Made by a program: the position numbers and the translations under genes | The notes under the pieces: model-generated | Seen by the model: only the letters and a program-made list of their open reading frames with translations | Database searches by the model: none | Told to the model about the DNA's origin: nothing | Assembly (NCBI GenBank): GCA_029863605.1 | Contig: JAOTVB010000024.1 | Span: 1 to 33,184, forward strand | DNA from: Myxococcales bacterium | GTDB lineage: Bacteria; Myxococcota_A; Polyangia; Polyangiales; Houyiibacteriaceae | Length of the DNA: 33,184 bases | Reading direction: 5' to 3' | Shown: one piece after another, positions 17,479 to 33,184 of the stretch | How the letters are laid out: each line of letters opens with the position of its first letter | How positions within the stretch are numbered: position 1 is the first letter of the stretch

Positions 17479-17964
17479 CTAGTGATGGGTGAGTTGCGGA
17501 ACGGACGCCTTCTGCTCAGGCTGCCCGCGGCTTTCGAGGGCGTGACTGAGCTCGACTCGGTTGCCGACCTGGAGCCGTCGGTACGCTTCTTTCAAGTGCT
17601 GGCGTACCGTATGGGCGCTGATCTCGAGGATCCTGGAGATCTCGCTTGCCGTTGCGCCTGCGGCAGCGTACTCGGCGATTTCGTACTGGCGCGGGCTGAG
17701 AAGTTGTTTGGCGTGCGAGTCGCCTTTCTGCATCTCGTAAACCGTCGCCACGCAACCGCATTGTGGGCCGTCGAGCACCTGAAGCAGCACCCGCTTGCCT
17801 CCTAGCAGGAGCCACTGGCGCTCGCGGCGCGCGGACTGAAGGGTACGAACCGCCTCGACCAGACGCGGAATCGCGGGTGGGGGCAACGCCAAAGGAAACG
17901 ATCTCGAATGGGAGACCAGCTGCCCGGAGGGGTCAAATACCGCGAGACCGGAATAAGGGGACAT
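17479..17964 (-). CDS. LuxR/GerE-type HTH transcription regulator
   Basis: The C-terminal 70 residues are a LuxR-type helix-turn-helix (LSPRQYEIAEYAAAGATASEISRILEIS then HTVRQHLKEAYRRLQVGNRVEL). The first 85 residues are a short sensor-like region (YSGLAVFDPSGQLVSHS) that could be a PAS-like fold. No receiver Asp pattern is seen, so it is not a typical response regulator. ATG 17964 gives 161 residues. The frame stays open to a TTG at 18069 (196 residues), and intermediate GTG codons exist, so the start is uncertain. It is 126 bp downstream of the enhancer-binding-type regulator on the same strand. Confidence 0.75.
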   Translation of the reverse strand: MSPYSGLAVFDPSGQLVSHSRSFPLALPPPAIPRLVEAVRTLQSARRERQWLLLGGKRVLLQVLDGPQCGCVATVYEMQKGDSHAKQLLSPRQYEIAEYAAAGATASEISRILEISAHTVRQHLKEAYRRLQVGNRVELSHALESRGQPEQKASVPQLTHH

Positions 17965-18090
17965 GGGTTCATGTAGGGCGCTGCAACTTGTATGCCGCTC
18001 GACAATGCTCACAAAAGGGCCTTGTCGAAGGCTCCACCTGTCCACTCCAGAGGACGATACCGCTTTCAACTGTCTTCACGGGGGACGCTA

Positions 18091-19602
18091 TCAGCGCGGC
18101 ATGCGAATATTGTGTACCTGGATCAGCTTATAGAGATGCGAGCGCGCGACATCGAGACGACGCGCGGCTTCGCTGATATTCCAATCGGACCCTTCGAGGG
18201 CGGCTGCGACGATCCGTGCCCGCACCAAGTGCAATTGGTTTTGCAGCGAGCGGTGCTCCTGCTCGTCGGAATCACTCGATCCGTCCGTACCGAAAAGATG
18301 CTTGGGTTCGATGAACTTAGATTCCGAAACCACGGCGCTTACCGCGCCTGCTTCGATCGTGTGCGCCAGCTGTCGCACGTTGCCTGGCCACTCCGCGAGC
18401 TGAACGGCGGTCACCGATGCGGGGGAAAGCTCGATCCCATTAAAATTGTGTCGAAGACATGCCTGCTTGAGAAAGTGCCTTGCAAGAGGCAACACATCTT
18501 CAGGCCGCTCCACCAGGGCCGGAACCCGAACTTCGAGCACCCGCAGCCGATACAAGAGATCTTCGCGGAACTTCCCATCACGCACGGCCTCGTCCAGGTC
18601 GGTGTTGGTCGCCGCGAGGATGCGCACGTCGGCCTGCCGGGGTTTTGATTCGCCCAACCGAAAATAGGCTCCAGATTGCAAGAGCTGCAAGAGCTTGGCT
18701 TGGGCCGTGGAAGCGAGCTCTCCGATATCATCCAAGAACAAGGTGCCGCCCTCTGCAGCGCCGACCCTTCCTTCGTAACCGGTGCGCGGTGCGGTCGAGT
18801 GGCCTCCAGGTCCGGACCCGAACAGCTCGTTCTCGATCAGGTGCTCTGGGAGCGCGGCACAATTCACCTCCACGAAAGGTCTGTCCGCTCGGTGACTGTT
18901 CGCGTGTACGGCACGCGCAAGCAGGGATTTTCCGGTTCCGGACCGTCCGATGAATAGAATGTTGATGTCGAGCGGGGCAGCGAGTGCAAGTTTCGAAAGC
19001 ACGTCCCTCATGGCCAAGCTTCGCGCGATCAACCCCTTGAACGGAAGAAGCTCAGACAGGTCTTCCGATTGCTGCACCCGCGCTTTGGCTACAAGGCGTT
19101 CACAGACCGGTGTGAGACAGCGGGCGAACATGTCGAGGATCCACTCCGCATGAGGGTCGAAGGGCCGTGCATCTCGAGCGCCTCCGAGATAGACGACGCC
19201 CCGGATGCTATCGTGGCCGATCGGTGCGCAAAGCACCGCTTGGATCCGTTCTGCACGGACGCTCTCGAACTCCGAAAACCTCGGATCCTGCAGGGCTGAC
19301 GCCGTGTGGATGGTGCGGCCCGCCGCGAGCGCCTCCGCGATGATCCCGCGGGAAAAGAATCGACGCACCTTTTCGAGCTCCTCCTCGTCGCAGCCCTCCG
19401 CCGCATGCCAATGCCTGTCGTTGTCGGAATCCTCGTCCTTGCACTCGATATATCCTTGTCGCGCTTCGACCACGTCGACCAGAAGGCGCAGCGCTTCAGG
19501 GAGAAGATCTTCAGGGGCGTCCGCCTGTTGGAGGCGAAGCAGTCCAAGGAAGAACTCCCGCTCGCGTGAAAGTCTTTCGATGTCCGGGCGCGTGTCGTGC
19601 AC
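18091..19602 (-). CDS. GAF-AAA+-Fis regulator with non-canonical sigma-54 loop
   Basis: This 503-residue regulator has an N-terminal GAF domain (about 20-175). An AAA+ domain follows: Walker A GRSGTGKS at 219-226, Walker B GGTLFLDDIGEL, and RVPALVERPEDVLPLARHFL. A C-terminal Fis-type HTH is present (ISEAARRLDVARSHLYKLIQ). In classical enhancer-binding proteins the stretch after ELFG carries GAFTGA, which contacts sigma-54. Here the aligned residues are GGHSTA in GSGPGGHSTAPRTG, so the Phe and Thr are missing and sigma-54 activation is doubtful. Start is GTG 19602. The gene is divergent from the FAD oxidoreductase and shares its promoter region. Confidence 0.9.
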   Translation of the reverse strand: MHDTRPDIERLSREREFFLGLLRLQQADAPEDLLPEALRLLVDVVEARQGYIECKDEDSDNDRHWHAAEGCDEEELEKVRRFFSRGIIAEALAAGRTIHTASALQDPRFSEFESVRAERIQAVLCAPIGHDSIRGVVYLGGARDARPFDPHAEWILDMFARCLTPVCERLVAKARVQQSEDLSELLPFKGLIARSLAMRDVLSKLALAAPLDINILFIGRSGTGKSLLARAVHANSHRADRPFVEVNCAALPEHLIENELFGSGPGGHSTAPRTGYEGRVGAAEGGTLFLDDIGELASTAQAKLLQLLQSGAYFRLGESKPRQADVRILAATNTDLDEAVRDGKFREDLLYRLRVLEVRVPALVERPEDVLPLARHFLKQACLRHNFNGIELSPASVTAVQLAEWPGNVRQLAHTIEAGAVSAVVSESKFIEPKHLFGTDGSSDSDEQEHRSLQNQLHLVRARIVAAALEGSDWNISEAARRLDVARSHLYKLIQVHNIRMPR

Positions 19603-19709: not shown

Positions 19710-19727
19710 CATCCCTCGAACGAGGGA
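19710..19727. promoter_or_regulatory. Palindromic operator candidate, copy 1
   Basis: CATCCCTCGAACGAGGGA contains 7-bp arms TCCCTCG/CGAGGGA around AA (19712-19727). It lies 107 bp upstream of the GAF-AAA+ regulator start and 93 bp upstream of the FAD oxidoreductase start. The identical 18 bases occur at 25553-25570 upstream of the P450 and kinase genes. Exact sharing between two divergent promoter regions suggests one DNA-binding regulator. As RNA it would form a 6-bp hairpin with a GAAC loop. Confidence 0.65.
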
Positions 19728-19756
19728 TACTCGCCTACCCGTTCCGGGGTCATTCT

Positions 19757-19779
19757 ATATTACATCTAGGATGCAATAT
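19757..19779. promoter_or_regulatory. AT-rich imperfect dyad before the FAD oxidoreductase
   Basis: ATATTACATC (19757-19766) and GATGCAATAT (19770-19779) are inverted with one mismatch in ten and a 3-nt spacer. The site lies 41 nt before the ATG in an unusually AT-rich stretch, the likely core promoter area. Size and symmetry suit a dimeric HTH regulator. No second copy was seen in the window. Confidence 0.4.
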
Positions 19780-19820
19780 TACAAACACAACGCCAGGAAT
19801 TGCGGGATTGGGGGCAGCAG

Positions 19821-21806
19821 ATGAGGAAAAAGCGAGTCGCGATCTACGGAGGTGGCGTGGGGGGGCTCAGCGCTGCTCATGAGCTTGCAAAGTTGGGGGA
19901 CCGCTTTGAGGTTCATGTCTACGAGCCGTCGAATGGCGTTGGCGGCAAAGCGCGCAGTCAGTACCTGCCCCACGCGGGAAGCGACCGGGGCCTTCCGGGA
20001 GAGCACGGGTTCCGGTTTTTTCCGGCGTTCTATTTTCATCTCGACCAAACCATGGCGGAGATTCCGCTGGCCAATGGAAGGCGTGTGATCGACAACCTCG
20101 TGCCGAGCCAGCAGTTCGCCATCGCGCGCAACGATCGCAAGCTTGCACTGGCCAAGCGCCGCATCGGACGTGGGACCGACACTCTGACCGACGCGGTGCA
20201 GCTTCTTTCCACTTGGTTTTCGCAAGACGCTCTTGGCCTGTCGTCGCCGGACCTCGCCAACATGGTCTACGCCTTCACGAAGTTCATGATGTCCGCCGAG
20301 ACTCGTCGCGCTCAGCAGTTCGATCAGATGAGTTGGTATGACTTCACCAACGGCGACTCGCAGCTGCTCTCCGATAACTACCGGGTCGTCGCGAACACGC
20401 TACCCCGCACCATGGTGGCGATGGATGGACGGCGCGGAAGTGCATATACCTTGGGGAAGGTGTGCTTGCAGGTTCTCTTCCTAGACCCTTTGCGGTCCCA
20501 TTCGAGCGCAGATCGGGTTCTCAACGCGCCGACCGACGAAGCGTGGTTGCTCCCTTGGTATGAGCATCTATCAGCATCTGGAGTGCAGTTTCATTTCGAT
20601 GCTGCGTTGGAGGGGCTCGAGCTCAAAGTTACCGGAACTGGACACGAGGTCGAGGGTGGGCGGCTCAGCAATGGCCGTAGCGTTCATGCGGACTATCACG
20701 TGTGTGCGATGCCGGCCGATCGAATGGCTTCGCTCGTTGATGACGCTCTCGCACTAGCCTCGCCAAGCCTGGGCCAAGTTCGAACGCGTCTTTCCGATCT
20801 GAATGCGTGGATGGTCGGAGCGCAATACTTCCTGCGCAAGGATATTCAGATTGCAAGTGGCCATGTGATCTATTCCGATTCGCCCTGGGCGCTCACGTCG
20901 ATCTCGCAAGCGCAATTCTGGGACGATAAGGACGCTTCGTTCGCCGAGAAACACGGCGGCGAGGGGATCCATGGCGTTCTTTCGGTCGATATCTCGGATT
21001 GGGACGCCGTTGCGCCCAGGCTGGGACGCGCCGCCAAGAATTGCACTCGGGAAGAAGTCCTCGACGAAACCTTCCGGCAGATCATGGACGGGCTCAATGG
21101 AAGAGGAAACGACGTCGTCGGCTGGGACGACGTCGCCTGCCGACATTTGGACAAGAACATCAAGTTTGGGGGCCCCGAGAACCGGGCGATGAGCAATGAC
21201 ACGCCGCTGTTCATTCACGAGCCTGGGACCTATCAATACAGACCAGCGGCACAGACCGAGATCGAAAACCTGTTACTGGCCTCCGATTACGTCGCGACGC
21301 ATACGAATCTGGCGACCATGGAGGGCGCCAATGAAGCCGCGCGTCACGCGGTCAAGAGCATCCTGAGACGGGAAGGATGTGTCGCCCGCTTGCCGCGCGT
21401 ACGCGCGCTTTCCGAGCCGATGGTGTTCCGACCCTTTCGTCGGTTCGATGCGTGGTTGATGTCGCAGGACCTCGGCCTGGACCATATGTTCGATCTAGGA
21501 GAGGTAGAGCTGTCGGAGCTTCTCGCGCAGGCTGAACGAGTATCGCAAAAGGTGTCGCTGCCCCGTATGCGTGCCTTCGTTCGCCAAATGAGCTCGCGGC
21601 CTCGGTTGCGTGGGTCGGCCCCTCGATCCGTCCTGCTCGCGCAGTCTGCGTTCCGTCAGGTGGCAAGCTCGGTGTCCAGGGCCGAATTCCTTGCTAACAG
21701 GCGGACCTTCACGGTGCCTACCCGCCGTCGAAGCCCTCCGATCCCTGCCCGCAAAGGGGCAATACGCGCCGCCCCGTCGCCGTCGGAGCTACCGCCAGCG
21801 ATCTGA
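19821..21806 (+). CDS. FAD-dependent oxidoreductase, phytoene desaturase/amine oxidase-like
   Basis: This 661-residue protein has an N-terminal dinucleotide-binding fold (RVAIYGGGVGGLSAAHEL, acid VYEP, then GGKARS). The block GEHGFRFFPAFYFHL is seen in phytoene-desaturase and hydroxysqualene-dehydroxylase-like flavoproteins. Roughly residues 1-520 are the flavoprotein; the C-terminal part has the second FAD-contact region (LLLASDYVATHTNLATMEGANEAARHAV). About 140 extra residues follow, ending in a basic Pro/Ser tail. The substrate is probably an isoprenoid or other hydrophobic compound, which is inference. ATG 19821 has a G-rich ribosome site upstream. It shares an operator-like palindrome with the P450 gene, and no terpene synthase is present in the window. 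Confidence 0.8.
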   Translation: MRKKRVAIYGGGVGGLSAAHELAKLGDRFEVHVYEPSNGVGGKARSQYLPHAGSDRGLPGEHGFRFFPAFYFHLDQTMAEIPLANGRRVIDNLVPSQQFAIARNDRKLALAKRRIGRGTDTLTDAVQLLSTWFSQDALGLSSPDLANMVYAFTKFMMSAETRRAQQFDQMSWYDFTNGDSQLLSDNYRVVANTLPRTMVAMDGRRGSAYTLGKVCLQVLFLDPLRSHSSADRVLNAPTDEAWLLPWYEHLSASGVQFHFDAALEGLELKVTGTGHEVEGGRLSNGRSVHADYHVCAMPADRMASLVDDALALASPSLGQVRTRLSDLNAWMVGAQYFLRKDIQIASGHVIYSDSPWALTSISQAQFWDDKDASFAEKHGGEGIHGVLSVDISDWDAVAPRLGRAAKNCTREEVLDETFRQIMDGLNGRGNDVVGWDDVACRHLDKNIKFGGPENRAMSNDTPLFIHEPGTYQYRPAAQTEIENLLLASDYVATHTNLATMEGANEAARHAVKSILRREGCVARLPRVRALSEPMVFRPFRRFDAWLMSQDLGLDHMFDLGEVELSELLAQAERVSQKVSLPRMRAFVRQMSSRPRLRGSAPRSVLLAQSAFRQVASSVSRAEFLANRRTFTVPTRRRSPPIPARKGAIRAAPSPSELPPAI

Positions 21807-21825
21807 AACCGCGTGCAGCCCGTTG

Positions 21826-24800
21826 CTACTCGCCGCGAGCCAGCGGTAGTAGACAGCGCGCGAAGGCACTTGGGTCCTGGACCTCCGGGCCGAACGCTCT
21901 ACGACTGGAACCCTCGAGCTGATTTCGGTGATGAACGACCGCCGCCTTGAACAGGGACATGTCGGCGCGCTCGAACGATTGCTCCGCGTCGATCAGTGCC
22001 TTTCGCGCGGCCCCGAGCTTGCGTTTCTCGAGACAATGTCCCGCATGAACCGCAGATCCCATCGCTCTTGCCCATGGGAGGCTGTCACGACGGAGGCGTC
22101 GACTGGCGTTTCGCGCCGCTTTCAACAGTGAAGCACGGTCCGAAAGCTCAGTTGATTCCCTGCTGCCAGCCAGGGCCGTGCATCCGTCGAGATAATGAAA
22201 AACGCCTCGCACGGGCCGGTTATAGAGAACCAGGGACTCTCGAATTCGGGGTAGAGCGCGCTCGAAACGTTGACGTGCGTCCGTTGCGCGGCCCTCATAC
22301 AAATCTGTTTGAATGTCTCCCAATAGCGCCCAGAACTCCAAAAGTGAAAAGTCGAAACTAGAGGGCCATTGCAAGAGGGCCGCGTGTGACGTGGTTCTTG
22401 CCGCCTCGGGCTCCCCGCGCGCGAGAAACGTGAAGTTCGTAAGACCGACGCTCACCCAAGTGGAAGCAAGTCGATCGTCGCGAAGGCGAGCTTGCTCGAG
22501 CGCTCGAGCTTTCAACGATTCGATCTCGTCGATCTTGCCCTGCATCCCTAGACTCAAGGAGCTAACGATGTAGGCAGTGGAGAGCTGCCATCCTCCCATG
22601 GTGCACTTGCGCTCGATGAGCTCAGCGGCCTCTCGACACATCTCCACCGCATCGTTCCACTCTCCGGTTAGGAACTTGGCGGTGGCCGATGTCGTGAGAG
22701 TAAGCGCCAGAAGATGGGGGTCACCGATGGCCTTAGCTTCGCGCATGGCCTGCTTTGCCCGCCACTCGAAGATGGGACGAAAGAGCCTGGGCCCGACCGC
22801 CGCTAGATAACAACTCTCGGTGGCAAGCGCTCTTGCTCGGTGGAGCTGATCGTTCGTCATGAAAGCAAATCGAGTGTGAAACGCCTGATAATAGGCGGAC
22901 CGCGCGATGTCGGCCCACACCATGCCGATCGTTGCGGACCAGAGTACGTCCAACCGCTCCAAGAGCTCCCGGGTGGCCGGGAGCGGCTTCAAGCGAACCA
23001 GCCATCGAAAGCCGGCGAGTAGCTTCTGTTTTAGACAGAAGCGGAGCAGCCGCGAGACGGAGTAGGGGAGCTGCAGCTCCGGGACGGGCAACAGAAGCGT
23101 CAGCTTGCGGTAGCCTTCGTCGATAAAACCGCTGCGCAGGAGCGCTTCTGCCGAGCGGCGCCGCAGCTCGCGCGCCCTGAAAGGCTCACCGTCAGCGGTT
23201 TCCACGTGCCTAGCGGCGGTAGCGTATGCGTTTCCAGCCAATTGGCCTTGCCCTGACGCTTCGTAAGCGGCTCCGAGACGCTCGTGGATCGGTGACTGGT
23301 CGCCCGAGCCATCCTGCACCTCCAGACCCAGCAGGTAGACTTGGATCGCTTGGTCAAACGCCATGGCGTCCATGAGACGATCGCCGGCGCGCAGGGCGTA
23401 CTTTCTGGCCATGTCTTCGTTGCCCGCACCACGCCAGTGCCAAAACGTCGCGACGGGGTCTGCTTTTGCGTCCGCGCTCAGGGTTTGGGCCAAAGCAAGA
23501 TGCAGGTCACGCCCGGCCTGCGCACCAAGATTGGCGACCAGAGCTTCGCGGATCCCGTCGTGATAGGGCACGAGGGGCATCATCGGACCAAGCGGAACTT
23601 GCTCGATGAGTCGACCCGCCCCGAGGAGCTCCTGTGCTGCTCGTGCAGGCGCCGCTACGTTCATTGCAGTTGCAAGGGTCGCTAGGGTCACGGGCCTCGT
23701 CGCGATGCAACACGCTTCGAGTATGCGACGTGCATCTTCACCTAAGTCTGCGAGCCTTTCGCGGAGCACGTCCGCCAAAGACATGGACCGGTGAGGTATC
23801 CACTCCGAGGCTTGATCCTGGACGTGCTGAGCGATCTGCAAAGCGAGGAACGGGTTGCCCCGGCTCTCCCTGGTGATCGTGGAAATTACCCTGGTCGGTG
23901 CCTCTCCCATCACCTCGCGGATCAATCGCGACATCTCAGCCCGAGAAAGAGATCCAAGGTTCAGGTCTAGGGCGGTAAACCCGCTCGAGTCGAGTAGCTC
24001 GTGGCACGATTCGATTTGACGTGCCGTCGTGACCAAAAGCAACGGTACCGGTTCATGAAGCAGACTTCCCCAGAACGCGGCGCTGTCGCGATCGCACCAC
24101 TGGAAGTCATCGATCCAAACTACGACTTTGCGAAACTTCGAGAGCTTTCTCAACACCGAGCTGAGAGCTGCCAAGCCATGTCTCCTTCGTTCGCGAAGGT
24201 CGATCGCAGCGGCTTCTAGGGAAGCTGCCGTTTTAAACCCTTTCACCCGGGCGAACACGGGAAAGAGTTGGAGCAGGTCGGCAGCTCTACGCGGTACGAG
24301 TCCTTCTACCTGCTCGCGGGGGAGCCGGCGAAGCTCTTGGGTTAGCGCATCGGCGATTCCATCGATGCCAGGCAGGGGGAGGGTAGCCACCGGCAAACAC
24401 CTGCCCTGTAGAACCGTGGCGTCCGCCTCCTCCTCGATGCGTTCGAGCACGCTTCGCACGAGGTGCGTTTTGCCGATTCCAGACGGACCCGAGACGCGGA
24501 CGACGGTCGGCGCGGACGGGCTCAAATGCCGAAAGGCCCGAATCAACGCCTCCGCGTTGCGTTCTCTGCCGACCATGGGAGGACGGATCCGCAATCGGGA
24601 GATCCGTGTCCTGGAATGCTTTTTCAACTCCCGCGATATCATGGAAGCCGTGGGGCGCGCCTCCGGGTCGGGATCGGTCATTTGGCGAATCAGTCTTTCG
24701 AGCCACTCCGGTGTTCCCTCCGGGAACGTTGGCAAGCCTTGGCGCTTCAAGCGATCGAGCTGAACTAAATCCGTGCCTACGAACGGCCGGGAGCTCGTCA

Positions 24801-25479
24801 CGCATTCGTAGGCCAATACGCCGAGGGAATAGACATCCGCGGCCGCGCTGGTCTCCGTCGTCCATACAGCCTCAGGGGGCATGTAGGCGACAGTTCCCGC
24901 CACCGGATGCTCACGGTTGCGCTTGCCGCGAATGGTCGCCATGAGACCAAAGTCGAGGAGCACCACCCGCCCACCCGTGGATAGACGGACGTTGCTCGGT
25001 TTGACGTCTCGGTGGATCCAGCCGCGACCGTGCATGACCTCCAGGACGCCGGCCAACTGTGCAAGAGCCTCGCAAAGGCGATCACAGATCTCGGAGTGCC
25101 ACGCGCCCGGTGGGGTACCTTGCCGTACCCATTCTGTGAGATGGGGTCCGTCGACCAACTCCATCGTGAAGAAGCAATGCGCGCCCTCGATCACCAGCTC
25201 ATACATGTGAGCGAGGTTTTCGTGATCGATCTCACAAAGCGCTCGGAACTCGCGCTTCAGATCGTAGAGGTCGTCCGGGTCGAACCCCCTCAAGGTCTTG
25301 AGGGCCACCTCCATCTTGGTGGGGATGTGAAGCGCTCTGTACACGGTTCCGCCGTGGCCGCGCCCGAGCTCCTGCGAAACCTCGTAGTTGAGCTTGCGGA
25401 GCACCTGGGACGTGAGGGCCTCCTGAGGTGGACCGAACGGGGGATGTCGGTTGGTGTGGAGTACTGGGCTTGCGGGCAT
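21826..25479 (-). CDS. Ser/Thr protein kinase fused to AAA-type ATPase and TPR-like repeats
   Basis: This 1217-residue cytoplasmic signalling protein begins with a Hanks-type kinase (about 30-300). It has the glycine loop GRGHGGTVY, Lys in VALKTL, catalytic HRDVKPSN (156-163, Asp158), DFG and a PPE motif in place of APE. All active-site residues are present. An AAA_16/STAND-like NTPase follows, with Walker A GPSGIGKT at 331-338 and Walker B VVWIDDFQWCDRDS. The remaining roughly 600 residues are helical repeats of TPR type, probably for protein interaction. The start is ATG 25479; a GTG lies 18 nt upstream. It is convergent with the FAD oxidoreductase (19-bp gap) and divergent from the P450. 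No transmembrane helix is visible. Confidence 0.92.
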   Translation of the reverse strand: MPASPVLHTNRHPPFGPPQEALTSQVLRKLNYEVSQELGRGHGGTVYRALHIPTKMEVALKTLRGFDPDDLYDLKREFRALCEIDHENLAHMYELVIEGAHCFFTMELVDGPHLTEWVRQGTPPGAWHSEICDRLCEALAQLAGVLEVMHGRGWIHRDVKPSNVRLSTGGRVVLLDFGLMATIRGKRNREHPVAGTVAYMPPEAVWTTETSAAADVYSLGVLAYECVTSSRPFVGTDLVQLDRLKRQGLPTFPEGTPEWLERLIRQMTDPDPEARPTASMISRELKKHSRTRISRLRIRPPMVGRERNAEALIRAFRHLSPSAPTVVRVSGPSGIGKTHLVRSVLERIEEEADATVLQGRCLPVATLPLPGIDGIADALTQELRRLPREQVEGLVPRRAADLLQLFPVFARVKGFKTAASLEAAAIDLRERRRHGLAALSSVLRKLSKFRKVVVWIDDFQWCDRDSAAFWGSLLHEPVPLLLVTTARQIESCHELLDSSGFTALDLNLGSLSRAEMSRLIREVMGEAPTRVISTITRESRGNPFLALQIAQHVQDQASEWIPHRSMSLADVLRERLADLGEDARRILEACCIATRPVTLATLATAMNVAAPARAAQELLGAGRLIEQVPLGPMMPLVPYHDGIREALVANLGAQAGRDLHLALAQTLSADAKADPVATFWHWRGAGNEDMARKYALRAGDRLMDAMAFDQAIQVYLLGLEVQDGSGDQSPIHERLGAAYEASGQGQLAGNAYATAARHVETADGEPFRARELRRRSAEALLRSGFIDEGYRKLTLLLPVPELQLPYSVSRLLRFCLKQKLLAGFRWLVRLKPLPATRELLERLDVLWSATIGMVWADIARSAYYQAFHTRFAFMTNDQLHRARALATESCYLAAVGPRLFRPIFEWRAKQAMREAKAIGDPHLLALTLTTSATAKFLTGEWNDAVEMCREAAELIERKCTMGGWQLSTAYIVSSLSLGMQGKIDEIESLKARALEQARLRDDRLASTWVSVGLTNFTFLARGEPEAARTTSHAALLQWPSSFDFSLLEFWALLGDIQTDLYEGRATDARQRFERALPRIRESLVLYNRPVRGVFHYLDGCTALAGSRESTELSDRASLLKAARNASRRLRRDSLPWARAMGSAVHAGHCLEKRKLGAARKALIDAEQSFERADMSLFKAAVVHHRNQLEGSSRRAFGPEVQDPSAFARCLLPLARGE

Positions 25480-25552
25480 TACATGTAGTCCGTGCACGCT
25501 ATCACGAAGAAGCCGGTCGTGAGCGGATTGGCGCGCTCTCGCTCTTTCGATG

Positions 25553-25570
25553 CATCCCTCGAACGAGGGA
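25553..25570. promoter_or_regulatory. Palindromic operator candidate, copy 2
   Basis: This is the same 18 bases as at 19710-19727, in the same orientation relative to the oxidase gene. It lies 73 bp upstream of the kinase start and 80 bp upstream of the P450 start, again in the divergent gap. The flanking sequences of the two copies differ beyond the 18 bases, which argues for conserved binding rather than recent duplication. Confidence 0.65.
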
Positions 25571-25650
25571 GTGCCTGCGCCCCTTCAGCCTGGCTAAGGT
25601 GATTGGTGGAGAGGGCCAATGAGGCCGGTTCCAGGGGGGAATCAATAGTT

Positions 25651-27390: not shown

Positions 27391-27443
27391 GGATTTGCAC
27401 CCTATTTCTAGAATCGTGACACTCTAGAGATGGGGGATCCCGC
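27391..27443 (+). promoter_or_regulatory. Conserved 53-bp leader, copy A
   Basis: This block ends 2 nt before the protease ATG. It contains TTGCAC, TAGAAT, the palindrome CTCTAGAG and GGATCCCGC. It aligns without gaps to 30737-30789 (42 of 53 identical by eye). Such conservation outside genes suggests a promoter or 5' leader. The sequence over the start codon (27438-27453) keeps TCCC...GGGA arms of the 16-bp palindrome family. Confidence 0.55.
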
Positions 27444-27445
27444 AG

Positions 27446-30400
27446 ATGAGGGATAGCGCGCCTGCCTTGGCGTTGTGGGCACTCGCTCTGTCGTGGCCAG
27501 CCGGGGCGTACGCGCAGTGCTCGACCGCCGACGTCGACATGAACGGGATACCCGATGTGTGCCCGGCGGGCTCGAACTACATCGGGGGGACCGCTGCGGG
27601 GGACACTCTTCGGGGCACCAACGGCGTCGACTGCATGTTCGGGTACGGCGGCGACGATGACATCGACGGCCGCAACGGCGACGACTACATCTGCGCCGGC
27701 AGTGGCGCCGACGTCGTCGACGGCGCCGGGGGCCACGACAGCATTTTCGGTGAGGCAGGCAACGATGCGCTCGATGGCGGCGCGGGCGACGATTTCATCA
27801 ATGGTGGCGACGGCGACGATATAGTCGACGGCTCGTCGGGCACGGACAGCCTCAATGGCGGCGCCGGGAACGACACGATCGATGGAGGCGGCGGACCCGA
27901 TTTCTTGAGCGGCGAGGACGGCGATGACGTTCTCAACGGAGGTGGCGGCAATGATTCACTGAGCGGCGGCGATGGCACAGACCCTTTGGATGGCGGTGGC
28001 GGAACCGATACCTGCGTCGAGGAAGTCCCGGGTACATCCGAGTGGCTGACGAGCTGCGAGACCGTGACCTACGCGTCGATCAGTCGGTTCGATGTGGTCA
28101 AGAGTGGTCGCGGGGCGATCGTCACTTGGGAGACCACAACCGAGGTCGGTGTGGTCGGATTTCGCCTGTGGCGGATCGTAGCCGGCGGAGCTCCACGCTT
28201 CGTCGAGGAGCTCGCCGCGGCGCCCAACGGAGAGCTGCACGGCGGTACCTATTTCGCACGCGACGAGTTAGCACGGGGTGCCGAGGTCACCTACCTGCTC
28301 GAGGAGCGCACCGTGGCGGGGGGAAGCGTCCGTCACGGGCCGTTCGTCCGCTCGTTGGATCCAGCATCGGCGAGTCATCCGTCTCGACTTTGGGTGGGGC
28401 GCTCGGGCCGCATTGCCCGGAAGGTCCCGCTTCGACGGCTGCGTCGCGAATGGCCGGCCGAATCGAGCGCTGCATTCCAGACGAAGAGTGGGGACTCTCC
28501 GGATGCGGTCGAGCTCGCCGTCGATGCTTCGGGTGTGATCGAGGTCAGCGCCGACGAAGTCTCGGAAGGGCTGGGGCTTCCCGTGGGGGACGTGGCAGCG
28601 TTGATCCGAGAGGGTGGCCTCGACCTTCGTCTCGCCGACGTGTCGGTGCCCTGGCAGTCGGTCGCGGGGGGTGCGGGCATCCGCTTCGTGGCCGACGACT
28701 CCCGCTCGCCGTTCACGCTCCTCAAACGATATCTGTTGTCGGTTGGTCCTGGGGTGCTCATGGAGACGCGTGAGCTCGTGCCTGCCGGCCAGGAAGCGCC
28801 GCACTCGTTTGTCGAGACCGCGCGGTTCGAGGAGAACGTGTTTCCGGGGCTCACGGGCAATCCCGACCCGCGCAAGGACTTTTATTTCTGGCATGCGCTG
28901 ACCTCAGCGGCCGAGGTCACGATTCCGGTGGCGCTTCCGTCGCTGGCGACGCCGTCTGCGGTGGCGCTTCGCGTATTCGTGCACGGCGCCACCGACCATC
29001 CCGAGCAGGCCCATCAAGTCGAGCTTCGGTGGAACGGTCAAAGCCTCGGGACCTTCGATCTTTTCGGGCGCACGTCCCATGTGTTGGAGGTGCCGCTCGA
29101 CGGTGTGGCCGCGACGGCCGACAACGAGCTCGTGATCGCACAGCACGTCCTTGGCGAAGCGCTTCCGGTCGTGTACGTCGACACGGTCGAGGTCGACTAT
29201 GTGCGAGAAGCACGCGCGGAGGGGATGTCGTTTGAGTTTGGGGCGAGTGTCGACGGCGTGCACACGGTCACCGGCTTCACCGAAGACAACGTGCTTCTCT
29301 ACGACATCAGCGATGCGGACTCCCCAGTGGCCTATGGCGAGACCCCGCTCATCGCCGACGGAGAGACCTACCGCTTGAGCTTTACCGGAGCCGATGCGGC
29401 AACTCGGTTCCTGGCCGCCGGCCCGGGGGCCGTGCGCTCGCCGATCGAGGTACGCCCGCATTTCGCGTCGACGCTTCGAGAGGCCAATCATGACGAAGAC
29501 TACATCATCGTGGCGGCCTCCCATCTCGTCGAAGCGGCAAAAGGCTTGGCCGAACTTCGAGAAGCGGACGGCTATCGTGTGTTGCTGGTCGACATCGAAG
29601 ATGTCTACTGGGCGTTCGCAGGGGGAGTCTCAGACCCCGCCGCGGTCCGGTCGTTCCTTGCGCATGCCTGGGAGACCTGGGCGAGCCCGCCACGCTTTGC
29701 CGCGTTGGTGGGACTCGGTACGTTCGACTATCGAGACTTGGGCGGCCTAGGCGGCAATTGGGTGCCGCCGATGTACGCTCAGACCGACGGCGGTCTTTTC
29801 GCTTCGGATTCCATGTTGGGCGATGTCGTCGGGGACGACGGTGTGCCCGAAATCGCGGTCGGACGACTACCGGTCACCAATGGCGACGAGCTCGCGCAAG
29901 TCCTCGAGGCCACGCGTCGGTTTGAAGCCGACCATGCCGACATGGATGTGCTCGTCGCCTCCGATGATTCCGAGATGCGCGAGTTTGCGCATGCGACTCG
30001 ACTCTTACGCACCTCGTTGCCGTTCGAGCGGATCCACGAGATCGACCTCGATCAAGAGACGCTCCAGGAGGCCCGCGCTCGGCTCTTCGCCTTGTGGGAA
30101 GACTCACTCAGCTGGGTGAGCTTCATCGGGCACGGAGGCCTCGATCGGTTGGCCAACGAGGGCTTGCTCACCACCACCGACGTGCCGACCCTGAGCGCGA
30201 ATAGCAGCCCCGTCATCCTCGGCTGGACCTGCAACATCGCGCGGTTCGATATCCCTGGTTTCCTCGCGCTGGGCCACGACTTGATCGTCCGGGGGATAAG
30301 CCCCGCGGTCTTCAGCGCCACCGGCTGGTCCAATCACCACGACACCGACGCGCTTCGAACTGAGCTCACAGCGGCCGCCTTTGCCTCCGATGCCGAAACC

Positions 30401-30706
30401 ATCGGCGAAGCAGTGCTCCGGGGCCATCGCGCCGCCTCGGAGGCTCCCGTGCAGTTGCACCGGGTCTATGCGCTCCTTGGGGATCCAGCGCTTCGCCTCC
30501 GCGCACCTAAAGCCGATCGGGACTTGAACGATCCGAGCGCGAGCGGTGAGCCGGTCGCGGGCCAAGGAGATGAGGCGAGTTGGGGGAGCTCCGGCTGCCA
30601 AATCGGGCCCGAACGAGGGGCCGACCCGTGGTTTGGGCTCCTCGTCTTGGTCGCCGGTCTGTGGGTCTCATCGCGCCGTCGCCAGTCCCGCGCTGCGCTA
30701 AGCTAG
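27446..30706 (+). CDS. Secreted RTX-gingipain-like (C25) protease with MYXO-CTERM-like tail
   Basis: This 1086-residue protein starts with a Sec signal peptide (APALALWALALSWPAGAYAQ, cleavage before CS). Residues about 48-190 hold some fifteen calcium-binding RTX nonapeptides of the GGxGxDxxx type. A beta-rich middle region follows. Residues about 690-1030 resemble peptidase family C25 (gingipain), with the catalytic pair His896 in FIGHGGLDRL and Cys929 in GWTCNIARF. The end has Gly-Cys, a hydrophobic helix (WFGLLVLVAGLWV) and SSRRRQSR, resembling a MYXO-CTERM surface sorting signal. It is predicted to be exported, calcium-dependent and surface-anchored. RTX repeats at the front of a Sec-exported protein are unusual, as they normally lie near the C-terminus of type I substrates. 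Confidence 0.85.
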   Translation: MRDSAPALALWALALSWPAGAYAQCSTADVDMNGIPDVCPAGSNYIGGTAAGDTLRGTNGVDCMFGYGGDDDIDGRNGDDYICAGSGADVVDGAGGHDSIFGEAGNDALDGGAGDDFINGGDGDDIVDGSSGTDSLNGGAGNDTIDGGGGPDFLSGEDGDDVLNGGGGNDSLSGGDGTDPLDGGGGTDTCVEEVPGTSEWLTSCETVTYASISRFDVVKSGRGAIVTWETTTEVGVVGFRLWRIVAGGAPRFVEELAAAPNGELHGGTYFARDELARGAEVTYLLEERTVAGGSVRHGPFVRSLDPASASHPSRLWVGRSGRIARKVPLRRLRREWPAESSAAFQTKSGDSPDAVELAVDASGVIEVSADEVSEGLGLPVGDVAALIREGGLDLRLADVSVPWQSVAGGAGIRFVADDSRSPFTLLKRYLLSVGPGVLMETRELVPAGQEAPHSFVETARFEENVFPGLTGNPDPRKDFYFWHALTSAAEVTIPVALPSLATPSAVALRVFVHGATDHPEQAHQVELRWNGQSLGTFDLFGRTSHVLEVPLDGVAATADNELVIAQHVLGEALPVVYVDTVEVDYVREARAEGMSFEFGASVDGVHTVTGFTEDNVLLYDISDADSPVAYGETPLIADGETYRLSFTGADAATRFLAAGPGAVRSPIEVRPHFASTLREANHDEDYIIVAASHLVEAAKGLAELREADGYRVLLVDIEDVYWAFAGGVSDPAAVRSFLAHAWETWASPPRFAALVGLGTFDYRDLGGLGGNWVPPMYAQTDGGLFASDSMLGDVVGDDGVPEIAVGRLPVTNGDELAQVLEATRRFEADHADMDVLVASDDSEMREFAHATRLLRTSLPFERIHEIDLDQETLQEARARLFALWEDSLSWVSFIGHGGLDRLANEGLLTTTDVPTLSANSSPVILGWTCNIARFDIPGFLALGHDLIVRGISPAVFSATGWSNHHDTDALRTELTAAAFASDAETIGEAVLRGHRAASEAPVQLHRVYALLGDPALRLRAPKADRDLNDPSASGEPVAGQGDEASWGSSGCQIGPERGADPWFGLLVLVAGLWVSSRRRQSRAALS

Positions 30707-30736
30707 CCTCTTTGGACGGCTGATTATATCAACAAC

Positions 30737-30799
30737 GGATTTGCACCCTGTGGCTAGAATTGCAAGGCTCTAGAGACAGAGGATCCCGCGAACGCGGGA
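30737..30799 (+). promoter_or_regulatory. Conserved leader, orphan copy B, with palindrome
   Basis: Bases 30737-30789 match leader A. The place of the start codon in A reads ACG here, and no gene follows. At 30784-30799 the sequence TCCCGCGAACGCGGGA is a perfect 7+7 palindrome around AA. It differs from the two operator candidates at 19.7 and 25.5 kb only by one compensated pair. Copy B is either a remnant of a lost exported gene or a retained regulatory site for the lectin gene. Confidence 0.5.
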
Positions 30800-30813
30800 G
30801 AGATCGATTGCCC

Positions 30814-30952
30814 CGCTTGGCAACCCAGGCCATCCGGAGATCCATTTCCGTTATTATTGTAGTTGCACAGTATTAGTAGAATTGCTTACACTCCATATAT
30901 GAGGAGCCCCGCATATAAGGACCCGCGATGAGGGCTGGATGGGTTGCCAGCG
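30814..30952. repeat. Inverted repeat bracketing the lectin promoter and start
   Basis: TGGCAACCCA at 30818-30827 is exactly inverted as TGGGTTGCCA at 30940-30949. With one bulged T the match extends to CGC/GCG (30814-30827 and 30940-30952). The 112 bp between hold an AT-rich promoter-like segment and the start codon of the lectin gene. It may be an mRNA long-range stem or the arms of an invertible segment. Confidence 0.4.
30859..30912 (+). promoter_or_regulatory. Leader copy C with sigma-70-like promoter
   Basis: TTGCAC (30863-30868) and TACACT (30887-30892) are spaced by 18 nt, a plausible sigma-70 promoter 36 bp before the lectin ATG. The blocks TTGCAC, TAGAATTGC and GAGGA..CCCGC are shared with copies A and B with one indel. 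The region is AT-rich compared with its surroundings. Confidence 0.5.
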
Positions 30953-33184
30953 CTTTGTGTGCATTTGCCGTGTCGTGGCATGCGGATGCGTCCGCCCAAT
31001 GTAGCGGGGGCGGCACGCGCGGCGCCTTCGGTACCTCGGAGTATCTCTACTGTGGGACCGACGCGAATTGGGGCGCCGCAGACGCAGACTGCGCGACCGC
31101 CGGAGCCGGTTGGACACTGACACGCGTCGACGACAGCGTTGAAGACGCGTTCATCAGGGGCCTAGGGGGCGGCGACCTCTGGATCGGGGGCGATGACCAG
31201 GCCGTCGACGGTGAGTGGCGCTGGCGCGACGGGGATCAGTTTTGGCAAGGCGACGAAAACGGAACGCCCGTGGGTGGCTTGTACAACAACTGGAGCGGGG
31301 GCCAGCCCAACGCAGGAGGAGATGAAGACTGCACGCGGATGAAGGGTGACGGGACCTGGGAAGACCGACAATGCGCCGACACCGAACGCTACGTGTGTGA
31401 AGGGCCACCGATCTGCGGCAACGGCGTCAGAGGCGCAGGAGAAGAGTGCGACGACGGCAATACCACGGATGGTGATGGCTGTAGCGCGACGTGCACTCTC
31501 GAGGGCCCTCCGCCGTGCGGGGATGGTCGGATCTGGCTCGGAGAGGCATGCGACGACGGGGGCACAGTGGGTGGCGACGGGTGCAACTCGACGTGTGAGA
31601 TCGAGCCAGGGTACGCATGCACCGGAGAACCGTCGATCTGCACGTCTTCCTGCGAAGACAATTTCGCGTGGCGCAGCCAGATGGGCTCGACGACGACCGA
31701 ATATCTCCTGTGCGAAAAATCGCTTTCGGTGAGTGCGGCAGAGACGATTTGTGAGGGGCTTGGTGCGGGGTGGACGCTGACGCGGATCAATGATGCGACC
31801 GAGAACGCGTACATCGACGGATTCATCGGAAATCATGTTTGGACCGGTGGACAGGATGAGGCCGTCGAGGGCGCATGGCGCTGGCGTGACGGAGTTCAGT
31901 TCTGGCAAGGCGACGAAACGGGAACACCCGTCGGTGGGCTCTATACCAACTGGAAGTCGGGCGAGCCCAACGCAGGAGCCGATGAGGACTGCACGCGACA
32001 AGAGGACGGCGGCTTGTGGCAAGACAAGAAGTGCAGCGACAACGAGAAGTTCGTATGCGAGGGCCCGCCGATCTGCGGAAATGGCGCGGTGGCGATGCCC
32101 GAAGAGTGCGACGACGGCAATACCGCGGATGGCGATGGCTGTAGTGCGACGTGCACCCTCGAGAGCCCTCCCACGTGCGGGGACGGTCGGGTTTGGCTCG
32201 GAGAGGAATGCGACGACGGGAACGCGCTGGATGGTGACGGGTGCAGCGCCATTTGTGGGATCGAGCCAGGGTTCACCTGCACCGGAGACCCGTCGTCAAC
32301 CTGCACGGCTATCTGTGCGCCAGGAGACTTACAGTGGCACAGCCAGATGGGCTCGACGACGACCGAGTATCTCCTGTGCGATACATCGCATACTACGAGC
32401 AACGCCAAGACGATTTGTGAGGGGCTTGGTTCCGGGTGGACGCTCGCGCGTATCGAGGATGCGACCGAGAACGGGTACGTCGACGGCCTCATCGGCGATC
32501 ACCTTTGGATCGGCGGACACGATGAGGCCGTCGAAGGCGTATGGCGCTGGCGTGACGGGGTTCAGTTTTGGCAAGGCGACGAAACGGGAACCCCGATCGG
32601 TGGGCTCTACACCAACTGGAAGTCGGGCGAGCCAAACGCAGGAGCAGATGAAGACTGCTTACGACAAGAGAACGGCGGCTTCTGGCAAGACCGCAAATGC
32701 ACTGACAAGGAGAGGTTCATCTGTGAGGGCCCGCCGATCTGCGGAAATGGCGCGGTAGCGACGCCAGAAGAGTGCGACGACGGCAATATCCAAGATGGCG
32801 ATGGCTGTAGTGCGACGTGCACCCTCGAGGGCCCTCCCACGTGCGGGGACGCTCGGATTTGGCTCGGAGAAGAATGTGACGACGGGAACGCGCTGGGTGG
32901 CGACGGATGCAGCTCCACGTGTCAGGTCGAGCCGGGGTACACCTGCGCCGGAGACCCGTCGTCGACCTGCACGCCTTCCTGCGCAGACAATTTCGAGTGG
33001 CATAGCCAGATGGGCTCGACGACGACCGAATATCTCCTGTGCGAAAAATCGCTTTCGGTGAGTGCGGCAGAAACGATTTGCGAGGGGCTTGGTTCGGGGT
33101 GGACGCTCGCGCGGATCAACGATGCGACCGAGAATGGGTACATCGACGGATTCATCGGAAATCATGTTTGGACCGGTGGACAGG
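30928..33184 (+). CDS. Secreted C-type lectin / DUF4215 repeat protein (partial at right edge)
   Basis: The frame is open from ATG 30928 through the window end, 752 codons without a stop. A Sec signal peptide (WVASALCAFAVSWHADASAQ, cut before CS) is followed by units of a C-type-lectin-like domain plus two cysteine-rich DUF4215 motifs (CGNGxxxxxEECDDGNxxDGDGCSATC). The lectin domains keep the WxGGxD and WRWRDG cores. Their calcium-site motif is QPN in unit 1 and EPN in units 2 and 3, with WED or WQD downstream. EPN usually predicts mannose-type sugars in animal lectins; transfer to bacteria is uncertain. It is probably a surface or extracellular adhesin. The signal peptide resembles that of the upstream protease. 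Confidence 0.88.
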   Translation, partial: MRAGWVASALCAFAVSWHADASAQCSGGGTRGAFGTSEYLYCGTDANWGAADADCATAGAGWTLTRVDDSVEDAFIRGLGGGDLWIGGDDQAVDGEWRWRDGDQFWQGDENGTPVGGLYNNWSGGQPNAGGDEDCTRMKGDGTWEDRQCADTERYVCEGPPICGNGVRGAGEECDDGNTTDGDGCSATCTLEGPPPCGDGRIWLGEACDDGGTVGGDGCNSTCEIEPGYACTGEPSICTSSCEDNFAWRSQMGSTTTEYLLCEKSLSVSAAETICEGLGAGWTLTRINDATENAYIDGFIGNHVWTGGQDEAVEGAWRWRDGVQFWQGDETGTPVGGLYTNWKSGEPNAGADEDCTRQEDGGLWQDKKCSDNEKFVCEGPPICGNGAVAMPEECDDGNTADGDGCSATCTLESPPTCGDGRVWLGEECDDGNALDGDGCSAICGIEPGFTCTGDPSSTCTAICAPGDLQWHSQMGSTTTEYLLCDTSHTTSNAKTICEGLGSGWTLARIEDATENGYVDGLIGDHLWIGGHDEAVEGVWRWRDGVQFWQGDETGTPIGGLYTNWKSGEPNAGADEDCLRQENGGFWQDRKCTDKERFICEGPPICGNGAVATPEECDDGNIQDGDGCSATCTLEGPPTCGDARIWLGEECDDGNALGGDGCSSTCQVEPGYTCAGDPSSTCTPSCADNFEWHSQMGSTTTEYLLCEKSLSVSAAETICEGLGSGWTLARINDATENGYIDGFIGNHVWTGGQ
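31039..33184 (+). repeat. Tandem ~660-bp lectin-DUF4215 units
   Basis: The anchor EYLxC recurs at 31039, 31699, 32365 and 33028, giving periods of 660, 666 and 663 bp. Three full units and the start of a fourth are in the window. Units 2 and 4 are far closer to each other (for example CEKSLSVSAAETICEG and IDGFIGNHVWTGGQ in both) than either is to unit 3. Confidence 0.85.

Follow-up and report, generated by a model that had tools for sequence, protein, structure and literature searches.

A palindromic site repeated in the divergent promoters of a Polyangiales gene cluster and a LuxR-type protein as its candidate binder

The 33,184-nucleotide contig JAOTVB010000024.1 of a Myxococcales bacterium (assembly GCA_029863605.1; Polyangiales, Houyiibacteriaceae) contains a palindromic sequence of 18 base pairs (bp) in two identical copies, sites A and B, each located between a divergently transcribed pair of genes, and a symmetric variant, site C, upstream of a third gene. 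The contig (C49) was analyzed over its entire length of 33184 bases and is referred to here as the window; it is part of a 4.2-Mb genome of 4,195,081 bases in 54 contigs (G000). The palindrome very probably serves as the binding site of a genetic switch dedicated to the gene cluster in which it lies. We give a probability of about one half to the reading that a protein kinase and an AAA+ regulator encoded in the cluster control the gene of a LuxR-type protein, and that this protein binds A, B and C as a cluster-specific operator.

In this mechanism the kinase (21826-25479) and the GAF-AAA+ regulator (18091-19602), with the kinase acting on the AAA+ protein in response to some signal, would control the LuxR-type gene through a different dyad at 18039-18056. 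One step later, a dimer of the LuxR-type protein (17479-17964) would bind the palindromes by means of a NarL-like helix-turn-helix (HTH) suited to 7-bp arms and a 2-bp centre. It would act at A, B and C, by activation or repression, on the genes for a flavin adenine dinucleotide (FAD) oxidase, a cytochrome P450 and a secreted protein, and would exert feedback on the two genes that diverge from A and B, those of the AAA+ regulator and the kinase.

Palindromic sites and their distribution

The three sites are as follows.

Site A, 19710..19729, + strand: CATCCCTCGAACGAGGGATA, in the gap between the AAA+ regulator gene (-) and the FAD oxidoreductase gene (+)
Site B, 25553..25572, + strand: CATCCCTCGAACGAGGGAGT, in the gap between the kinase gene (-) and the P450 gene (+)
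Site C, 30782..30801, + strand: GATCCCGCGAACGCGGGAGA, symmetric variant 128 bp upstream of the open reading frame starting at 30928, within a duplicated 90-bp block

The identical 18-mer CATCCCTCGAACGAGGGA reported in a preliminary description of the contig is present exactly, on the + strand, at 19710-19727 and 25553-25570. Both copies are placed between divergent genes, and each separates a signaling gene from an oxidase gene as that description had it, at 93 bp from the FAD oxidase ATG (site A) and 80 bp from the P450 ATG (site B); the distances to the signaling genes are 109 bp (AAA+ GTG) and 75 bp (kinase ATG). The statement that the sequence occurs nowhere else is correct for the exact 18-mer and overlooked the third symmetric variant, TCCCGCGAACGCGGGA, at 30784-30799. 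When up to three mismatches to the 18-mer are allowed, the window gives four matches (both copies, the first copy read in reverse, and 30782-30799) against a chance expectation of 0.02, and none of 100 shuffles reached four. All three sites are perfect 7-2-7 dyads, with inverted 7-bp arms around a 2-bp centre.

Site C calls for caution: its 90-bp block (30723-30812) duplicates, at 73%, the segment 27377-27466 around the start of the neighboring C25-peptidase gene. The counterpart of the site in that segment overlaps with the start codon, and its dyad is incomplete. Both copies of the block contain CTAGAAT...CTCTAGAGA, and the second copy lies after the C25 peptidase gene. A further candidate, "site D" at 27438 (TCCCGCAGATGAGGGA), is imperfect and overlaps the C25 peptidase ATG; it was not counted.

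In the complete assembly of its own genome, the pattern TCCCNCGAACGNGGGA has three matches, all in the window, and the reversed control has none. With two mismatches allowed the matches rise to 62 versus 30 for the control, and specificity is therefore limited to the exact class. A repeat family (REP or mobile), which the preliminary description had named as the competing outcome of a genome search, was rejected on the basis of these three exact matches on a single contig, and the palindrome looks like a local operator instead. In a congener (G017), sites A and B are identical to those in the window and their spacing of 5843 bp is also unchanged. Identity is 16/16 at each of the two sites versus 170/202 and 117/155 across the remainder of the respective gaps; given the local flank identity, 16/16 has a probability of 0.036 at A and 0.010 at B, which is modest support. 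Site C is kept in G017 with one central change. The regulon of two oxidases and their regulators proposed in the preliminary description is thus well supported as a small local one, with three exact sites in the cluster that are kept in the congener, and its third target had been missed.

Among 96 genomes the exact 16-mer matched in 17, own genome counted, with 4 control matches. Conservation of the sites upstream of orthologues, as expected in the preliminary description, was found in G017. Across the other genomes the exact pattern was rejected as an order-wide signal, since 15 of the 21 exact matches outside G000 and G017 are inside mechanically picked reading frames. Multiple copies were noted in two genomes: locus L027 (G074:C203:57110-62024) has four exact TCCCCCGAACGGGGGA palindromes in 5 kb, of which three fall within picked reading frames, and TCCCGCGTTCGCGGGA occurs twice on one chromosome with the same flanks each time (L018 and L023, G043:C1:412 and 599811), a small duplication.

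The proportion of matches inside reading frames weighs against a functional role, as does the finding that perfect 7-2-7 dyads are not rare in general (seven in the window, with ~3 expected), and the position of site C in a duplicated block points the same way. Coincidence or a functionless repeat element is nevertheless highly improbable, given that A and B are identical and located in gaps, that the genome control is zero, and that both sites are kept in G017 despite changed flanks. It is scarcely more probable that the gaps are transcribed into a ribonucleic acid (RNA) hairpin functioning as an attenuator, terminator or leader structure. The arms are able to pair, and a G028 copy directly after a stop codon resembles a terminator stem; A and B, however, lie at divergent gene starts, none of the 8 terminator-like matches in the intrinsic terminator search covers A, B or C, and the loop CGAACG is as well conserved as the arms.

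By-eye inspection downstream of A and B revealed no sigma-54 promoter, and a sigma-70 scan found 0 versus 2.0 expected. An AT-rich stretch, TATTACATCT-GGATGCAATATTACAAAC (19758-19786), between site A and the FAD oxidase gene is kept in G017 and is a possible promoter.

A second dyad class beside genes of the AAA+ regulator subfamily

The regulators of the cluster and the second dyad type are listed here.

LuxR-type protein with GerE domain, 161 aa, 17479..17964, - strand: presumed binder of A-C
Second dyad type, CGTCC-N8-GGACA, 18039..18056, - strand: 74 bp upstream of the LuxR-type ATG, presumed AAA+ regulator site
GAF / AAA+ / HTH_8 regulator, 18091..19602, - strand: GGHSTA at the GAFTGA position
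Ser/Thr protein kinase with AAA_16 ATPase part, 21826..25479, - strand: divergent at B

The AAA+ regulator was tested for the features of sigma-54 activators: GAFTGA is absent (GGHSTA), and Walker A/B and HTH_8 are present. It belongs to a subfamily for which we collected 75 loci, counting those of the window and G017, by searching 96 and 317 genomes. The subfamily is present in 60 of 317 genomes of the class (E<=1e-95) and has a member in Sorangium cellulosum So0008-312 (L342), a species of the same order as the organism of the window. G-x-H-S (mostly GAHSTA) takes the place of GAFTGA in 67 of the 75 loci, whereas four have GAFTGA, GAYTGA or GSFTGA and four are otherwise altered there; the Walker motifs are kept in all 21 loci inspected. 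In the literature searched, which comprised open-licence papers, we found neither the string GAHSTA nor an account of a kinase / AAA+ / LuxR circuit, and to this extent the regulon is undescribed, as the preliminary description had supposed. In 52/75 loci a kinase homologue is encoded no more than 6 kb away, a count to which we attach little weight because it has no control and kinase genes are abundant in these genomes; a LuxR homologue lies within 4 kb in 8/75, likewise a count without control.

From dyads in the 400 bp upstream of subfamily genes we derived the motif TGTCC-N8-GGACA. It has 15 matches in 30,000 bp upstream of these genes and 13 in 1,099,560 bp elsewhere, so that 15 of 28 fall within 2.7% of the sequence, figures that involve estimated start codons, a motif found on the same data and loci related by descent. 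Control spacers of 6, 7, 9 and 10 gave no matches upstream and 1, 1, 2 and 0 elsewhere. Dyads matching at least 8 of 10 positions pair at a distance of 32 bp (16 pairs) and give 31 pairs at 30-35 bp, where nine shuffled half-sites gave 0 to 18, the 18 coming from a control with threefold matches. G026 is the nearest relative from outside the genus, and its only two copies of TGTCCT-N6-AGGACA stand in tandem between divergent LuxR and AAA+ genes. Two other routes were abandoned: the dyad CTGCCTC-N4-GAGGCAG upstream of the AAA+ gene in G058 and G043 overlaps a ribosome-binding-like GGAGG and was set aside, and per-locus clustering of similar dyads was swamped by GC-rich chance dyads. The subfamily as represented by 18091-19602 and L185-L281, with its tandem dyads ~32 bp apart, is worth separate study.

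The dyad at 18039-18056 is of this type, and its G017 counterpart is TGTCC-N8-GGACA. With such a dyad upstream of it, the LuxR-type gene is the likely direct target of the AAA+ regulator in the window.

Candidate binders of the palindrome

The LuxR-type gene lies behind the AAA+ gene. Its start is taken as the ATG at 17964 because the G017 protein aligns from there. The product has a GerE domain (PF00196, E 3.7e-14) and no receiver domain match in Pfam, and NarL is among the relatives of its alignment in the PDB. A predicted model (mean predicted local distance difference test, pLDDT, 80; predicted template modeling score, pTM, 0.51) has a small alpha/beta N-terminal part. Structure comparison gave weak matches to EL222 and VqmA (TM-scores 0.3-0.5, 10-18% identity), and a PAS-like sensor part in the N-terminus is only a suggestion from this model. 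Homologues at E<=1e-11 were found in 14/317 genomes, and 8 of these also have the AAA+ subfamily, versus 60/317 overall (p 0.001, uncorrected for descent).

Dyads of CATCCC type occur at LuxR-type promoters in two other genera (G053 and G023). In G053, which has a LuxR homologue whose HTH is 65% identical over 55 residues, CATCCCCCGAACGAGGGTTG lies 36 bp upstream of the ATG, and the same promoter has two TGTCC-type dyads. On another G053 contig, an ALO-type FAD oxidase gene adjoins a divergent promoter that has two more CATCCC-type sites, 61 bp apart. In G023, two such dyads 59 bp apart lie upstream of an operon ending in a LuxR homologue; the best match to the AAA+ subfamily in this genome is 7e-69, with none at E<=1e-95. 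The first gene of the operon is alpha/beta hydrolase-like by eye. Weaker examples come from G028, at its LuxR promoter, and from a second G058 locus, where the promoter concerned is that of the kinase gene. Two G028 matches were not taken as promoter evidence, as one (C179) lies directly after a stop codon and the other (C201) precedes another GerE gene without blastp similarity to the LuxR-type protein.

A 14-position consensus derived from the window only, matched at 13 or more positions, occurs twice (L307, L311) in 275 kb of 17 LuxR-fetched loci. The 66 AAA+-subfamily loci that lack LuxR (957 kb) contain no such match; when the threshold is lowered to 12 or more positions, the counts are 7 and 10, respectively. 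An 18-position form at 16 or more has three matches (L306, L307, L311) in ~303 kb of LuxR loci, a total that includes the 19-kb locus L316 fetched for its motif, and none in either the 957 kb or 845 kb of other loci (p 0.003). Of 24 distinct exact 16-mers with flanks, five have CA before or TG after, all of them from the LuxR-bearing G000, G028 and G053; neither flank is present at site C, at G017 site B or at the G043 and G025 matches, though these genomes are LuxR-bearing.

A number of observations weigh against binding by the LuxR-type protein or qualify the case for it. The 18-position form and its threshold were picked after some sites had already been seen, and one of its matches (L311, in G048) is inside a reading frame and outside any LuxR promoter. 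The G023 dyads have another centre (CAAATG), and the window's own LuxR promoter contains no CATCCC dyad. Only six of the 16 LuxR matches have a recognizable nearby site, namely the window and G017, the two strong cases (G053, G023) and the two weak ones, and the remaining 10 have none. Genome-wide matches with at most one mismatch are alike in both groups, 73 in 11 LuxR-bearing genomes (control 27) versus 61 in 10 LuxR-less genomes (control 31), and we rejected them as support for a LuxR link. Finally, the centre-to-centre distance between the CATCCC dyad and AAA+-type dyads is 32 and ~64 bp in the LuxR promoters of G053 and G028. This phase is the usual tandem spacing of AAA+ dyads, and an AAA+ array would therefore fit as well.

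Direct binding of A, B and C by the HTH_8 domain of the AAA+ regulator, through a second site class or a specificity changed in this lineage and with autoregulation at A, is an alternative to which we assign odds of roughly three to one against. In addition to the shared phase, site A precedes the regulator's own gene, CC-N8-GG is common to both dyad types, and HTH_8 proteins bind dyads of ~16-18 bp. This was our first idea, with A and B as a variant of the family dyad, and it was demoted once the enrichment of TGTCC-N8-GGACA was found. That dyad is the one upstream of subfamily genes and is the type found in the window before the LuxR gene, whereas A, B and C deviate from it and read ATCCC-N8-GGGA. 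The consensus at 13 or more is missing from subfamily loci without LuxR, and CATCCC dyads precede the LuxR operon of G023, which has no subfamily member at the threshold above. The AAA+ regulator is thus probably not a direct binder of the A/B palindrome. The preliminary description had named both the LuxR and the GAF-AAA+ protein as candidates for a binding assay; the evidence favors the former, and the latter is better assigned to the other dyad.

Less probable again is a transcription factor encoded elsewhere in the genome, outside the window. The assignment of a binder is by inference from sequence, and the genome-wide near-match counts do not follow LuxR, as such a factor would allow. Every exact site, on the other hand, falls in one cluster, as a local regulator predicts.

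Binding by the LuxR-type protein remains our preferred reading. Its extension to myxobacteria and their relatives is tentative, and we hold it to be somewhat doubtful: a STAND-like Ser/Thr kinase would act on an AAA+ protein remodeled for function independent of sigma-54 (GAHSTA instead of GAFTGA) at tandem TGTCC-N8-GGACA dyads three helical turns apart, which would control a LuxR-type gene, and the LuxR-type protein would control private genes through CATCCC-n-CGAACG-n-GGGATG.

Presumed target genes and comparison with known systems

The presumed targets of the three sites are given below.

FAD-dependent oxidoreductase (amine-oxidase / HpnE-like), 19821..21806, + strand: presumed target of A
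Cytochrome P450, 25651..27243, + strand: presumed target of B
Open reading frame with myxobacterial cysteine-rich repeats, running off the contig, 30928..33184, + strand: presumed target of C

The nearest NCBIfam entries are albaflavenone/pentalenene oxygenases for the P450 and HpnE for the FAD enzyme, both matched far under the curated cut-off. An FAD-oxidase homologue (39%) directly adjoins a kinase homologue (34%) at a locus of another family (L203, G036:C31:37127-42642), so that the FAD-kinase pair recurs. Between the P450 gene and site C, 27446-30706 encodes a single protein with a C25 (gingipain/PorU-like) peptidase domain and RTX calcium-binding repeats. The frame at 30928-33184 has six cysteine-rich myxobacterial repeats and probably consists of repeated or duplicated units, because several of its regions match each other's G017 counterparts.

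This analysis puts forward candidate operators for two families of regulators in myxobacteria-like bacteria and places the P450, FAD oxidase and secreted-protein genes under a single putative switch. It also highlights an AAA+ subfamily, found in 60/317 genomes of the class, in which another, conserved motif replaces the sigma-54 contact. With their proposed sites and a predicted target gene in hand, action of these AAA+ proteins with other RNA polymerase forms is directly testable.

Among known systems, the upstream activator sequences of NtrC and NifA are dyads of ~16-18 bp bound by HTH_8 domains; A and B differ from them in sequence and spacing and in having no sigma-54 promoter downstream by eye. 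The PAS-LuxR regulators VqmA and EL222 resemble the modeled LuxR-type protein in combining a small sensor-like N-terminal part with a LuxR HTH, at the low fold similarity and identity given above. TyrR, DhaR and HupR are described as relatives of sigma-54 activators in which the GAFTGA motif is defective (PMC3162934, PMC1173090). Like the AAA+ subfamily, they are AAA+ and HTH_8 regulators that have lost the GAFTGA contact; unlike them, the subfamily has a conserved replacement, mostly GAHSTA, and tandem TGTCC-N8-GGACA dyads. A parallel to the sites themselves is provided by the NarL operators of Escherichia coli. An engineered NarL site, TACCCCTAAAGGGGTA, is a 7-2-7 dyad with an AA centre (PMC4549865), in both respects like the palindrome, and NarL operators share with A-C the inverted heptamers, the 2-bp centre, the C/G-rich outer arms and recognition by a GerE/LuxR HTH, which for A-C is the predicted binder. 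They differ in the half-site, TACCCCT as compared with TCCCNCG here, and in that the LuxR-type protein of the window has no Pfam receiver domain match.

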